Source: Brachyspira innocens ATCC 29796
GTDB taxonomy: Bacteria; Spirochaetota; Brachyspiria; Brachyspirales; Brachyspiraceae
DNA length: 64,000 nucleotides
Direction of reading: 5' to 3'
NCBI RefSeq assembly: GCF_000384655.1
Contig: NZ_ARQI01000120.1
Coordinates: forward strand, 1 to 64,000
Shown here: piece by piece, positions 23,651-27,907 of the stretch
Layout of the letters: every line of letters starts with the position of its first letter
Position numbering within the stretch: position 1 is the stretch's first letter
The notes under the pieces: generated by a model
What the model was told of the DNA's origin: nothing
What the model saw: only the letters and a program-made list of their open reading frames with translations
Databases searched by the model: none
Program-made: the position numbers and the translations under genes

Positions 23651-24604
23651 ATGGGTATAGAAGACGAAATATTGATATTAAGCGGCACAGCAAATCCTCA
23701 ATTATCAGAAGATGTTGTAAGAAATCTCGGTCTTAAATTAGGTAATATGGAAATACGTAAATTTGCTGACGGAGAGACATTTGTACAAATAGAGGAAACT
23801 GTTAGAAATAAAGATACTTATGTGATACAGCCTACAGGCCGTCCATCAAGCAGTGAAAACTGGATGGAACTCTATTGTATTATAGATGCTTTAAAAAGAG
23901 CTAGTGCTAAACGTATTACGGCTGTTATACCTTATTATGGTTATTCTAGGCAGGACAGAAAGAATGAGCCTAGAGTACCTATAACTGCTAAATTGGTTGC
24001 TAATTTGTTGTCAGAAGCTGGAGCTCATAGAGTTTTAGCTCTTGATTTGCATGCAGCACAAATACAGGGTTTTTTTGATATACCAGTTGACCATATGCTT
24101 TCAAAAAATGTGTTCTTGGATAAAATAAAAAAAGACCTTGATATGTCTAATTCTATTATAGTTTCTCCTGATATAGGGGGAGTTGGCAGAGCTAGAGCTA
24201 TAGCTAAACAGCTTAATCTTGATATCGCTATAATAGATAAAAGAAGAGACAGAGCTAATGAATGCGAAGTTATGAACATTATAGGTGATGTCAATGGTAA
24301 AGATGCCATTATTATAGATGATATAATAGATACAGGCGGTACTCTCATAAAAAGTATGCAGGCACTAAAAAAAGCTGGTATGAGAAAGATATATGTGTTT
24401 ATAACTCATGCCGTATGTTCTGGTGATGTTTATGAGAGAATTAATTCAAGTGATATAGAAAAATTATATATCACAGATAGTTTGAAAGTTATGAAAGACA
24501 GATTAGGAAGCAAAATAGAAGTTCTTTCAGTAGCCCCTGTAATTGCTGATGCTATTAGACATATACATATGGAACTTTCTATAAGTGTTCTATTTGATAA
24601 GTAA
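23651..24604 (+). CDS. prs: Ribose-phosphate pyrophosphokinase
   Basis: Prs makes PRPP from ribose-5-phosphate and ATP for nucleotide, histidine and tryptophan synthesis. The 317-residue length is normal. KFADGETFVQI lies near the N terminus, PYYGYSRQDRK near 98, the metal/substrate DLHAAQIQGFFDIPVDH near 130, and the PRPP-binding IIDDIIDTGGTL near 220. It sits directly behind tRNA-Gln and 20 bp before the L25 gene, an arrangement (prs-rplY-pth) common in bacteria. Confidence 0.97.
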   Translation: MGIEDEILILSGTANPQLSEDVVRNLGLKLGNMEIRKFADGETFVQIEETVRNKDTYVIQPTGRPSSSENWMELYCIIDALKRASAKRITAVIPYYGYSRQDRKNEPRVPITAKLVANLLSEAGAHRVLALDLHAAQIQGFFDIPVDHMLSKNVFLDKIKKDLDMSNSIIVSPDIGGVGRARAIAKQLNLDIAIIDKRRDRANECEVMNIIGDVNGKDAIIIDDIIDTGGTLIKSMQALKKAGMRKIYVFITHAVCSGDVYERINSSDIEKLYITDSLKVMKDRLGSKIEVLSVAPVIADAIRHIHMELSISVLFDK

Positions 24605-24624: not shown

Positions 24625-25203
24625 ATGAGCGAGAATTATACTATTAAAGCTTTACAAAGAGATACAAAATTTAAAAGTGTTGGACGCAAATTGAGAAATG
24701 AAGGTTATGCATTAGCTACTCTTTATGGAAGAGAAAATCAATATTCTATCGCTGTAGAATTAAAAGAGTTTGTTAAAGTTTTCTCTTTGGCAGGGCAGCA
24801 TGATATAATTACTTTAGATATAGAAAATGATAAGGCTAGAGAAGTATTGGTAAAAGATTATCAAATAGACGGCATAAAAAGAAGTATCAGACATATAGAT
24901 TTCTATGAAATAGACAGAAACAAAAAAATCAAAACTTATGTTCCTATTCATATAGAAGGTGTACGTTTAGGCGGCGGTACTCTTGAACAAGTTGAATACG
25001 GTTTGCCTATTAGAGCTTTGCCTGGATCTATACCTAGAGAATTAATCGTTGATGTAAGCGAATTAAAAGTAGGCGATAGTTTACATATTAGCGACATAAA
25101 ATTCCCAGAAGGCGTTGATCCTGTTGGTGATGGTTCTAAAGCTGTTGTTACAGTTGTTACTACTCAAGATGATGAAGCTGCTAATAAAGGTGCTGAAGCA
25201 TAA
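24625..25203 (+). CDS. rplY: 50S ribosomal protein L25 (Ctc/TL5 type)
   Basis: L25 binds 5S rRNA. The 192-residue protein is the long Ctc form: an N-terminal 5S-binding beta-barrel (about 1-95, with KLRNEGYALATLYGRE and HIDFYEID) followed by the C-terminal TL5 domain (about 96-185, VPIHIEGVRLGGGTLEQVEYGLPIRALP). An AAGGAAAG SD lies before the ATG. Its place between prs and pth matches the conserved gene order. Confidence 0.95.
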   Translation: MSENYTIKALQRDTKFKSVGRKLRNEGYALATLYGRENQYSIAVELKEFVKVFSLAGQHDIITLDIENDKAREVLVKDYQIDGIKRSIRHIDFYEIDRNKKIKTYVPIHIEGVRLGGGTLEQVEYGLPIRALPGSIPRELIVDVSELKVGDSLHISDIKFPEGVDPVGDGSKAVVTVVTTQDDEAANKGAEA

Positions 25204-25225: not shown

Positions 25226-25816
25226 ATGATGAAATTAGTAATGGGACTTGGTAACCCAGGCGAACAATATAAAAATCATAGACATAATGTCGGCTATATG
25301 ATTTTAGATAGAGTTGCTAAAAAACTTAATGTCGAATTAGATATTAAGAAAAAGAAAACTGTTTTCGGCAGAGGAAAACATGGTAAAATGGAGTATTTAC
25401 TCCTAAAACCTCTTACTTTTATGAATCTTTCTGGAGAGGCAGCTCTTTATATGGCTAGCTTTATGAAAATTACTGTTGAAAATATTATAGTAATTTATGA
25501 TGATACTAGTGTTCCAATAGGGGAGTTTAGAGTTATACCTTCAAAAACCGATGATTCACAAGAAGATACTGAAGAATATACAATAGACCACAATGGCATA
25601 AAAAGTATAAGAGAATCTTTAAAAAGCTACAATTTCACTAAAATTGGAGTTGGAATAGGAGCTTGTCCTGAAAATGAGGAAAAAGCTGATTTCCTTTTAG
25701 CACCTTTCTCCAAAGATGAAAGAAAAAAAATTAGAGATATATCTGATAATGTTGTAGATGCCACTTGTATAGCATTGTTTGATTCTCCTCAGGCTGCAAA
25801 AAAGAAATATTCATGA
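25226..25816 (+). CDS. pth: Peptidyl-tRNA hydrolase paralogue 1, divergent
   Basis: Pth frees tRNA from stalled peptidyl-tRNA. This 196-residue copy keeps the N-terminal GLGNPGEQYKNHRHNVGY with the catalytic His, the MNLSGEA Asn, the YDDTSVP Asp and HNGIKS. The conserved Gly-rich loop before HNG (GGSSGG in the next gene) is replaced by a longer acidic stretch with many Asp/Glu, so RNA binding may be altered. The first in-frame codon is a TTG at 25223. The ATG at 25226 is preferred, ten bases after AGGA. The stop overlaps the start of the second pth (ATGA), so the two copies are co-translated. Confidence 0.85.
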   Translation: MMKLVMGLGNPGEQYKNHRHNVGYMILDRVAKKLNVELDIKKKKTVFGRGKHGKMEYLLLKPLTFMNLSGEAALYMASFMKITVENIIVIYDDTSVPIGEFRVIPSKTDDSQEDTEEYTIDHNGIKSIRESLKSYNFTKIGVGIGACPENEEKADFLLAPFSKDERKKIRDISDNVVDATCIALFDSPQAAKKKYS

Positions 25817-26712
25817 CTACTAAATTGATTATAGGGCTTGGAAATCCGGGCGATGAGTATAAAAATAATAGACATAATGTTGGTTTTATTCTTATTGATA
25901 AAATAGCAGAAAATTTATCTCTTAATTTTTATACCAATAAAAAGAAATCTTTATATACAAGAGGCAAATCTAAAGATATAGAATATATACTTCTTAAACC
26001 TCAGACATTTATGAATCTTTCTGGAGAATCAGCTCTTTATATATCCAAATTTTTTAATGTAAAACTTGATGATATAATAGTAATATATGATGATATGGAT
26101 ATACCATTCGGAACTTTTAAAATAAAAAAAGGCGGAAGTTCGGGCGGGCATAATGGAATAAAGAGTTTAATTGCTCAGCTTCATAGTGATGATTTTACTA
26201 GAATTAGAATAGGTATAGGAAGACCTAGTGCTGGTAAAAAAGTTAATGATTATGTACTTTCAAATTTTAGTAAAAAAGAAATGGAAGAATTAAATACCGT
26301 TATTGCTGATAATGTTATAGAGGCAGTAAAAACGGCATTATTTGAATCTCCTATAATAGCTCAAAATAAGTATAATAAAAAGATTAATAGTAAAGATAAT
26401 TCTAATAAATCTAAGGTTAATAAAAACATGATAAAAATAGTGTCAAAAAATCCTGTAAAAGAAGAAAATAAAAAAGAATTTATTGAAACAGCAAAAGAAC
26501 TTATAGAAAAAAGCAGAAAAGAAGAAGGCTGTATATCATATAGTTTATATGAAAGTTTAGACGGTAAATACTTATCTTTTATAGAAGAATGGAGAGATGA
26601 AAAAGCTATAGAAAATCATAATAATTCTGAACATTTCAAATCAATAGTTCCTAAACTTGCTCAATTAACTGAAAACGGTAAAGATGTTGTTTTGTATAAA
26701 GAGCTAAAATAA
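25813..26712 (+). CDS. pth: Peptidyl-tRNA hydrolase fused to an ABM-type monooxygenase-like domain
   Basis: Residues 1 to about 190 are a complete, canonical Pth: GLGNPGDEYKNNRHNVGF, MNLSGESALY, IYDDMDIPFG and the intact GGSSGGHNGIKS loop. A Lys/Asn/Ser-rich linker (about 191-204) leads to a C-terminal domain of about 95 residues (IKIVSKNPVKEENKKEF, GCISYSLYES, FIEEWRDEKAIENH). This is the ferredoxin-like antibiotic-biosynthesis-monooxygenase (ABM, YgiN-like) fold. I know of no reported reason to join these two activities. An in-frame Met at the domain boundary (residue 206) could also allow separate translation, but no clear SD precedes it. Confidence 0.88.
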   Translation: MTTKLIIGLGNPGDEYKNNRHNVGFILIDKIAENLSLNFYTNKKKSLYTRGKSKDIEYILLKPQTFMNLSGESALYISKFFNVKLDDIIVIYDDMDIPFGTFKIKKGGSSGGHNGIKSLIAQLHSDDFTRIRIGIGRPSAGKKVNDYVLSNFSKKEMEELNTVIADNVIEAVKTALFESPIIAQNKYNKKINSKDNSNKSKVNKNMIKIVSKNPVKEENKKEFIETAKELIEKSRKEEGCISYSLYESLDGKYLSFIEEWRDEKAIENHNNSEHFKSIVPKLAQLTENGKDVVLYKELK

Positions 26713-26821: not shown

Positions 26822-27253
26822 TTAGTCGTCAAATTTTTGTCCCATTAACTGTCCTTCAGAAGTTATAAATAGTTCCATAAAATTATTTAATTTCACTTTG
26901 TAATTGCCCCATTCTTTTTCTATTTCTATTATTACAGCATTAGGATAAGTATTTTTTATAGTGTTTGCTGCAGTTTGAGGTAAAGCACTGAAAGGAATAG
27001 TATTGTATTTTCCATCTATGCTATCCCATTCACCATTATACAAAAAGTCTATTTTAGAACCGTTTGATAATTTTACTTCAAATTTTCCGTCATCTCTTTC
27101 TGCTTTCCATATCTGAGCATCAGGATAAATTTGATGTATAAAGTTTTTAGCATTCTCTGGAAGTGAAGAAGCTGGAACTATCCAATCAGCAAAGGCACTT
27201 GAAGTAGAAATAATAGTCAAAGTTATTAATAAAGCAAATAATTTTTTAGTCAT
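26822..27253 (-). CDS. Secreted PepSY-like (DUF2874) protein, paralogue 1
   Basis: The 143-residue protein has a cleavable signal peptide (about 1-22, ending SAFA) and two repeats of the PepSY-like unit. Each has a Leu-Pro helix start (SSLPENAKNFI, SALPQTAANTI), a YP(D/N)A turn, and a strand pair (FEVKLSNGSKIDF, YKVKLNNFMELFI). It ends in GQKFDD. Such proteins are exported to the periplasm or envelope, but their role is unknown. Paralogues lie at 33275-33700 and 33732-34088. Confidence 0.8.
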   Translation of the reverse strand: MTKKLFALLITLTIISTSSAFADWIVPASSLPENAKNFIHQIYPDAQIWKAERDDGKFEVKLSNGSKIDFLYNGEWDSIDGKYNTIPFSALPQTAANTIKNTYPNAVIIEIEKEWGNYKVKLNNFMELFITSEGQLMGQKFDD

Positions 27254-27577: not shown

Positions 27578-27907
27578 ATGAATAATAAAAATATAAAATT
27601 AATAACTGATAAATTAGATGAGCTTATTAACTATTTAGAAAATAATAACTTGGAAGAATTTTTTCAAAATAAAAATGAGTTTTGCTCTATGATAATAAAT
27701 GAAAACAGTGAAGATTTTAATGATACTATAAAAGAAGATATAAAAATAATTGTTCCAGAAAATTTAATAGAAAGTTTTAAAAACTTTATAAAATATTTAA
27801 AAGTATTAAGATCAATGAAATCTGATGGAAATGACTATACACAATATACTTTAGATAATATAAGATATATAAGAAAAGAAATATTTAAAGATTTAAATAT
27901 ATTATGA
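27578..27907 (+). CDS. Small helical protein of unknown function
   Basis: A 109-residue, Asn/Glu/Lys-rich cytoplasmic protein, predicted all-helical, with no recognised motif. Its stop overlaps the start of the DUF2157 membrane protein (ATGA), so it is translationally coupled to it and may be its partner. No SD is clear at its own start. Confidence 0.65.
   Translation: MNNKNIKLITDKLDELINYLENNNLEEFFQNKNEFCSMIINENSEDFNDTIKEDIKIIVPENLIESFKNFIKYLKVLRSMKSDGNDYTQYTLDNIRYIRKEIFKDLNIL

Follow-up and report, generated by a model that had tools for sequence, protein, structure and literature searches.

Tandem pth genes behind rplY in Brachyspira

The window analysed here is a stretch of 64 000 nt from the 3.28 Mb genome of Brachyspira innocens ATCC 29796 (G000). 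Genes for tRNA-Gln, prs and rplY and two genes for peptidyl-tRNA hydrolase (Pth), here called pth1 and pth2-ABM, lie in this order on the + strand. The features of the locus are listed below.

23651..24604, + strand: prs, ribose-phosphate pyrophosphokinase (Pfam PF13793, PF14572, PF00156)
24625..25203, + strand: rplY, ribosomal protein bL25/TL5 (Ctc) (Pfam PF01386, PF14693)
25226..25816, + strand: pth1, 196 aa (PF01195, E 7e-49)
25535..25588, + strand: acidic stretch of pth1, 18 residues (104–121), net charge −6, replacing the Gly-rich base loop before HNG
25813..25816, + strand: ATGA overlap, formed by the pth2 start and the pth1 stop
25813..26712, + strand: pth2-ABM fusion gene, 299 aa, from ATG 25813 to TAA 26712
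25825..26376, + strand: Pth domain of pth2, catalytic and 5′-phosphate residues all present
26386..26418, + strand: pth2-ABM linker, residues 192–202, the part of lowest confidence in the AlphaFold model (pLDDT <50)
26414..26430, + strand: Shine–Dalgarno (SD)-like AGG (26414–26416) 11 nt before an internal ATG (26428–26430), possible start of a free ABM
26428..26649, + strand: ABM (YgiN-like) domain (PF03992, E 6.6e-19; nearest solved relative 4dpo)

The start of pth1 was placed at ATG 25226 (or TTG 25223) and its stop is the TGA at 25816. The protein had one Pth domain only by Pfam and scored 150 bits against the NCBIfam model TIGR00447 (cut-off 100). In the product of the second gene PF01195 was matched at residues 5–188 (E 5e-65) and PF03992 at residues 206–279 (E 2.5e-18). 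The latter was a full-length match to the ABM/YgiN/LsrG-like domain (66.4 bits against a curated cut-off of 23.1, covering positions 1–76 of the 78 in the profile); the match to the LsrG model of NCBIfam was below cut-off. The domain search and coordinates thus bear out a preliminary description, which had placed two overlapping pth genes at a prs-rplY-pth locus and a C-terminal YgiN-like domain on the second. PF01195 matches in the genome were confined to pth1 and pth2, and the ABM of pth2 gave the single PF03992 match genome-wide, so there is no second copy of this domain. The nearest named relative is Brachyspira sp. G79, whose pth2-ABM is 95 % identical to that of the window. Behind the pth locus lie a gene for a PepSY-like protein (26822–27253, − strand) and an ORF of 109 aa (27578–27907, + strand) without a Pfam match.

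Two adjacent PF01195 matches were found in 25 of 26 Brachyspira genomes, the exception being an assembly of 990 contigs. rplY lay upstream of pth1 in all 25 Brachyspira loci and likewise upstream of pth in the three sister-genus loci. The overlap between pth1 and pth2 was 4 nt in 23 of the 25 genomes; there was none in G019 and a different one in G001. The sister genera (G026, G027 and G028) and the sister family (G029 and G030) had a single pth per genome, also behind rplY. Among plasmids pth1 had no close relative: each of the 80 records matched was below 60 % identity.

In a tree of 118 rows, pth1 was sister to the single pth of G026/G027 (support 99/88), and this group joined G028 and the sister family (100/96); pth2 branched outside all of these single-copy Brachyspirae genes but inside Brachyspirae (100/99). 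A 47-row tree had the same topology with weaker support (87/53 and 89/72). Its grouping with the single-copy gene of G026/G027 and its position behind rplY make pth1 most likely the resident gene, orthologous to the one pth of those relatives, and pth2 a paralogue with canonical features. Of the duplication and divergence proposed in the preliminary description, the tandem paralogues and their divergence stand, except that the changed copy is the resident one. AU tests of nested hypotheses gave mixed answers, so the duplication is not dated: neither a Brachyspira-only duplication (P1+P2, p-AU 0.065) nor P1+P2+g2 (0.12) was rejected, and P1+P2+family was (0.02). The branching of pth2 outside the clade of pth1 and all single Brachyspirae pths could also reflect its gain by transfer instead of duplication within Brachyspira. 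We consider such a transfer rather unlikely, because pth2 still falls inside Brachyspirae, no donor was found, a duplication within Brachyspira was not rejected and the pth2 stem is long.

Catalytic residues and tRNA contacts of the two Pth proteins

Residues were compared in an alignment of 25 pth1 and 25 pth2 products (24 of the latter scorable, that of G012 being cut by a contig end) with three Pths from the sister genera, two from the sister family, 49 from other spirochaetes and 67 from other phyla, E. coli Pth serving as reference. Numbering is that of E. coli Pth, mapped from NC_000913.3; by convention it leaves out Met1, which fits the motif positions.

Both Brachyspira proteins have the fold, length, catalytic residues and prs-rplY-pth neighbourhood of bacterial Pth (PF01195, TIGR00447; E. 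coli Pth, 2PTH), which they depart from in being encoded by two tandem genes. pth2 was canonical throughout, with N10, H20, N68, D93, N114 and the clamp K105/R133 in all 24 scorable copies. In pth1 the residues N10, H20, F66, N68, D93, H113 and N114 were all retained (25/25), but residue 105 was I/V and never basic, and residue 133 was G/A in every copy (0/25 R/K), compared with R/K in 143 of the 145 other Pths. The segment 105–H113 comprised 19–22 residues in the 25 pth1 proteins, with a net charge of −2 to −7, and nine residues in all 145 other Pths, the canonical form being Gly-rich. The mean net charge of the whole protein was −3.1 for pth1, compared with +5.7 for pth2 and for the sister pths. 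The intact catalytic residues and acidic insertion reported earlier for the first gene, and the canonical character reported for the second, are therefore properties of the genus; that account did not mention that the residues equivalent to R133 and K105 are gone.

A review (PMC11202043) describes a basic patch of Pth (K103, K105 and R133) that contacts the 5′-phosphate of the tRNA, and a base loop that forms the floor of the catalytic pocket. We read the altered loop of pth1 as this base loop. Judged from its residues, pth1 appears to have kept its chemistry while its grip on the tRNA was rebuilt, both 5′-phosphate contacts (105 and 133) being lost. The AlphaFold model of pth1 had a pLDDT of 91, the loop excepted (61 at residues 111–120).

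In the sister genera, too, the only pth has a non-basic residue 105 (Q/S, 3/3) and must work nonetheless; loss at this position alone is therefore tolerated. Y or W was seen at the R133 position in Pths of several spirochaete families, some of them single-copy (L173, L194, L201, L204, L205, L206, L208, L337, L340 and L345).

Both genes might encode ordinary active hydrolases, the tandem serving dosage or a split of substrates and the acidic loop being a tolerated surface change. The complete catalytic residues of every pth1, its score above the NCBIfam equivalog cut-off and the ATGA arrangement kept in most genomes are in keeping with this. We nevertheless give it a minor share of the probability, because the two contacts and the base loop were lost together in 25/25 copies with a reversal of charge, and none of the 145 other Pths had the longer loop.

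The altered conserved features could alternatively mark a gene decaying toward loss, which is extremely improbable. The pth1 frame was open in 25/25 genomes, the overlap with pth2 is conserved, and median dN/dS over 117 pairs was 0.070 for pth1 and 0.088 for pth2. On the strength of this value pth1 is under purifying selection and not decaying, and it was rejected as a pseudogene.

CRS2, a splicing factor of plant chloroplasts that descends from Pth, sets a precedent for the use of such a protein in a new function. It was the closest solved sequence to pth1 (E 1e-28, compared with 2.5e-24 for the best bacterial Pth) and ranked eighth by fold. According to a review (PMC9275481), CRS2 lost Pth activity via substitutions. 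That pth1 is a non-hydrolytic RNA-binding protein of this type is nevertheless improbable: every catalytic residue is retained, the likeness is due in part to a DDTS motif present in only 3 of the 25 pth1 proteins, pth2 matches CRS2 too (E 2e-35), and an Rfam scan of the window found tRNA only and no group II intron. CRS2 furthermore belongs to a plant organelle and acts with CAF1/CAF2, and its alignment lacks the loop insertion of pth1; the comparison is one of sequence and fold similarity.

The ABM domain behind pth2

ABM/YgiN/LsrG-like domains (PF03992) are usually small stand-alone proteins, whereas in most Brachyspira the domain is fused behind a Pth. pth2 and ABM shared one open frame of 298–309 codons in 17 of 25 Brachyspira genomes. 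The preliminary description had considered that a sequencing frameshift might have joined two genes; the same open fusion in 17 genomes rules this out. ABM was a separate downstream gene in four genomes (G010, G011, G013 and G016). In G009, whose pth2 is 97 % identical to that of the window, the linker differs by one base, so that the pth2 stop overlaps the ABM start. ABM lay away from pth2 in G001, and the G012 locus was interrupted by a contig end. Among named records, Brachyspira sp. G79, B. hampsonii and B. alvinipulli had the fusion and B. pilosicoli did not. A sequence-similarity search found it in 11 of 12 Brachyspira loci, which overlap the 25-genome set. In the smallest Brachyspira genome (G019, 2.0 Mb) the ABM frame behind pth2 was broken (L017, 2083–2363), by error or by loss.

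In the sister genus represented by G027, a separate ABM gene lies directly behind the single pth, and the pth-ABM neighbourhood is therefore older than the fusion. Because ABM was already a separate neighbour of pth there and in the four Brachyspira genomes, the fusion is a joining with the next gene and not the recruitment of a domain, which corrects the ‘domain gain’ of the preliminary description. The fusion is real but late and labile; as a union with an existing neighbour it is less striking than at first sight, and the altered pth1 gains in interest. A recent transfer that brought in pth2 and ABM as one unit was not supported, since ABM adjoins the single pth of G027 and the tree had no donor branch.

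Outside Brachyspira, no pth-ABM fusion was found among 198 spirochaete genomes, and in 68 non-Brachyspira loci, with flanks of at most 3 kb and less where a contig ended, there was neither an ABM match (E 1e-3) nor another Pth ORF. ABM genes of the sister family (L139 and L140) were distant from pth. Five clostridial candidates (L077, L081, L091, L110 and L115) matched over most of the pth2-ABM length, but the ABM part was weak (E 0.004–0.39). In L077 and L110 the ABM-like part falls on a long separate downstream ORF, which we take to be RNase G. All five were rejected as fusions. A 268-codon ABM frame in G087 was also rejected as a Pth fusion, its Pth being on another contig. Nothing on Pth fused to ABM, or on Brachyspira Pth, was found in open-licence PMC papers.

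AGG or a better SD-like motif stood 7–11 bases before the internal ABM Met in all 17 fusions and in seven separate ABM genes, compared with a background of 570 of 2720 in-frame pth2 positions (21 %). Under a synonymous-codon null, the probability of the motif was 1.0 in 7 of 13 distinct linkers. Since this null is uninformative where linkers have Lys-Gly codons and the linkers are related by descent, the motif is only suggestive of an internal start. We infer that free ABM is probably also still made from the fusion genes.

The AlphaFold model of pth2-ABM had two domains, the ABM part being less confident. ABM is a dimer-forming fold, and in a functional fusion it might pair or localise pth2 or couple it to redox or quinone stress. 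The prevalence of the fused frame and the position of ABM next to pth even when unfused are compatible with such a role, to which we assign a low likelihood. The domain is unfused in four genomes and by a single base in G009, moved in G001 and broken in G019; the linker is of low confidence and the SD-like motif and ATG have been retained; and no pth-ABM adjacency was seen in the other spirochaetes searched.

rplY-linked Pths of other spirochaetes and a proposed division of labour

The phylum-wide search covered 198 genomes, of which 75 outside Brachyspira had two Pth matches; at least one copy was read for 73 of these. Residues and rplY linkage were scored in 169 non-Brachyspirae copies from 113 genomes. 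H20 was missing from 69 copies, found in 68 non-Brachyspirae genomes of 13 family codes (including L160, L162, L163, L165, L167–L170 and L174); 66 of them were linked to rplY, two were at contig edges and one had no detected rplY. In two-copy genomes, the rplY-linked copies comprised 66 without and four with H20, the copies without rplY one without (L256) and 54 with H20, and the copies at contig edges two of each. One H20-less and one H20 copy were present in 51 of the 55 genomes for which both were read. One genome (G133) had three copies (L221, L222 and L295), two of them H20-less.

H20 was present in all of 40 single-match genomes. Thirty further single-match genomes gave 26 full-length copies with H20, two H20-less copies (G070 and G194) and two fragments (one with H20); about 14 more single-match genomes lie outside this tally of 40 and 30. 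The sole H20-less matches of G194 (L348) and G070 (L349) come from assemblies that are 80–83 % complete, so a canonical partner may be missing.

The H20-less copies retained N10 (69/69) and R133 (68/69) and had neither N114 nor a basic 105 (0/69 for both). All 24 sampled formed one clade (SH-aLRT 100), in which N17, I22, K25, N32, N33, I162, N166 and E169 are near-invariant and peculiar. The base loop held 0–1 Gly in 52 of the 69, compared with at least three in 74 of 75 H20 copies without rplY. These homologues are predicted from their residues to be catalytically dead, yet all 10 tested were ‘aminoacyl-tRNA hydrolase’ above the NCBIfam cut-off. Open-licence PMC papers yielded no report on inactive Pth paralogues of spirochaetes. 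Conservation was compared in 49 genomes that had both a linked copy lacking H20 and an unlinked copy with H20. Within families the H20-less protein was the more similar of the two in every one of 144 pairs (median 77 % vs 52 %), and it was so in 1162 of all 1176 pairs, which are not independent. Within genera, dN among the pairs listed was 0.005–0.10 for the H20-less copy and 0.04–0.41 for the partner.

Like these proteins, pth1 is found at the rplY locus of genomes with a second Pth, has lost the basic 105 and (as in most of them) the Gly-rich loop, and is strongly conserved. It is not a member of their family: its H20 and N114 are present in 25/25, and it falls in a separate clade. As the losses are opposite, R133 in pth1 and H20 and N114 in the others, a role common to both is only an analogy.

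The reading we favour, with modest confidence, is a division of labour in which pth2 is the working hydrolase and pth1 has been re-tooled and retained for another role. pth2, with or without ABM, would carry out the bulk of peptidyl-tRNA hydrolysis. In the resident pth1 the catalytic centre would remain intact behind a mouth that has lost its 5′-phosphate clamp (K105 and R133) and whose short Gly-rich loop has become a long acidic stretch. It is predicted to be poor at clearing ordinary elongator peptidyl-tRNA and may have been retained to act on a different substrate or to serve in binding close to the ribosome. ABM would be a linked neighbour fused by read-through, probably also made alone. 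Other spirochaetes suggest a parallel, in that the rplY-linked copy would lose bulk hydrolysis where a second Pth is present and still be retained. Several observations count against parts of this. In pairwise identity pth1 was more alike than pth2 in merely 178 of 276 Brachyspira genome pairs (pth2 in 98), and the non-basic 105 of the sister pths and the Y/W at 133 in some single-copy spirochaete Pths also speak against re-tooling. Four two-copy genomes (G040, G047, G058 and G141) have two H20 copies each, contrary to the parallel.

Pth reportedly releases nascent chains during ribosome-associated quality control, as stated in PMC11317155 with reference to Svetlov et al., and a role on 50S complexes is therefore conceivable. 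More tentatively, the rplY-linked Pth of spirochaetes may have a further function besides hydrolysis, perhaps on the 50S subunit close to bL25/5S rRNA, which would come to light whenever hydrolysis passes to a second Pth. Such a function would account for a very conserved, predicted-dead family in 13 or more family-level groups and, as a separate development, for the re-tooled pth1; the putative link to bL25 comes from gene order alone.

Pth is an essential enzyme and a drug target. In Brachyspira, annotation by locus would pick the wrong gene, as pth1 occupies the textbook place and the paralogue looks like the working enzyme. In the other spirochaetes, a seemingly broken Pth at a ribosomal-protein locus, more strictly conserved than its active counterpart, hints at a role of this protein not yet recognised.
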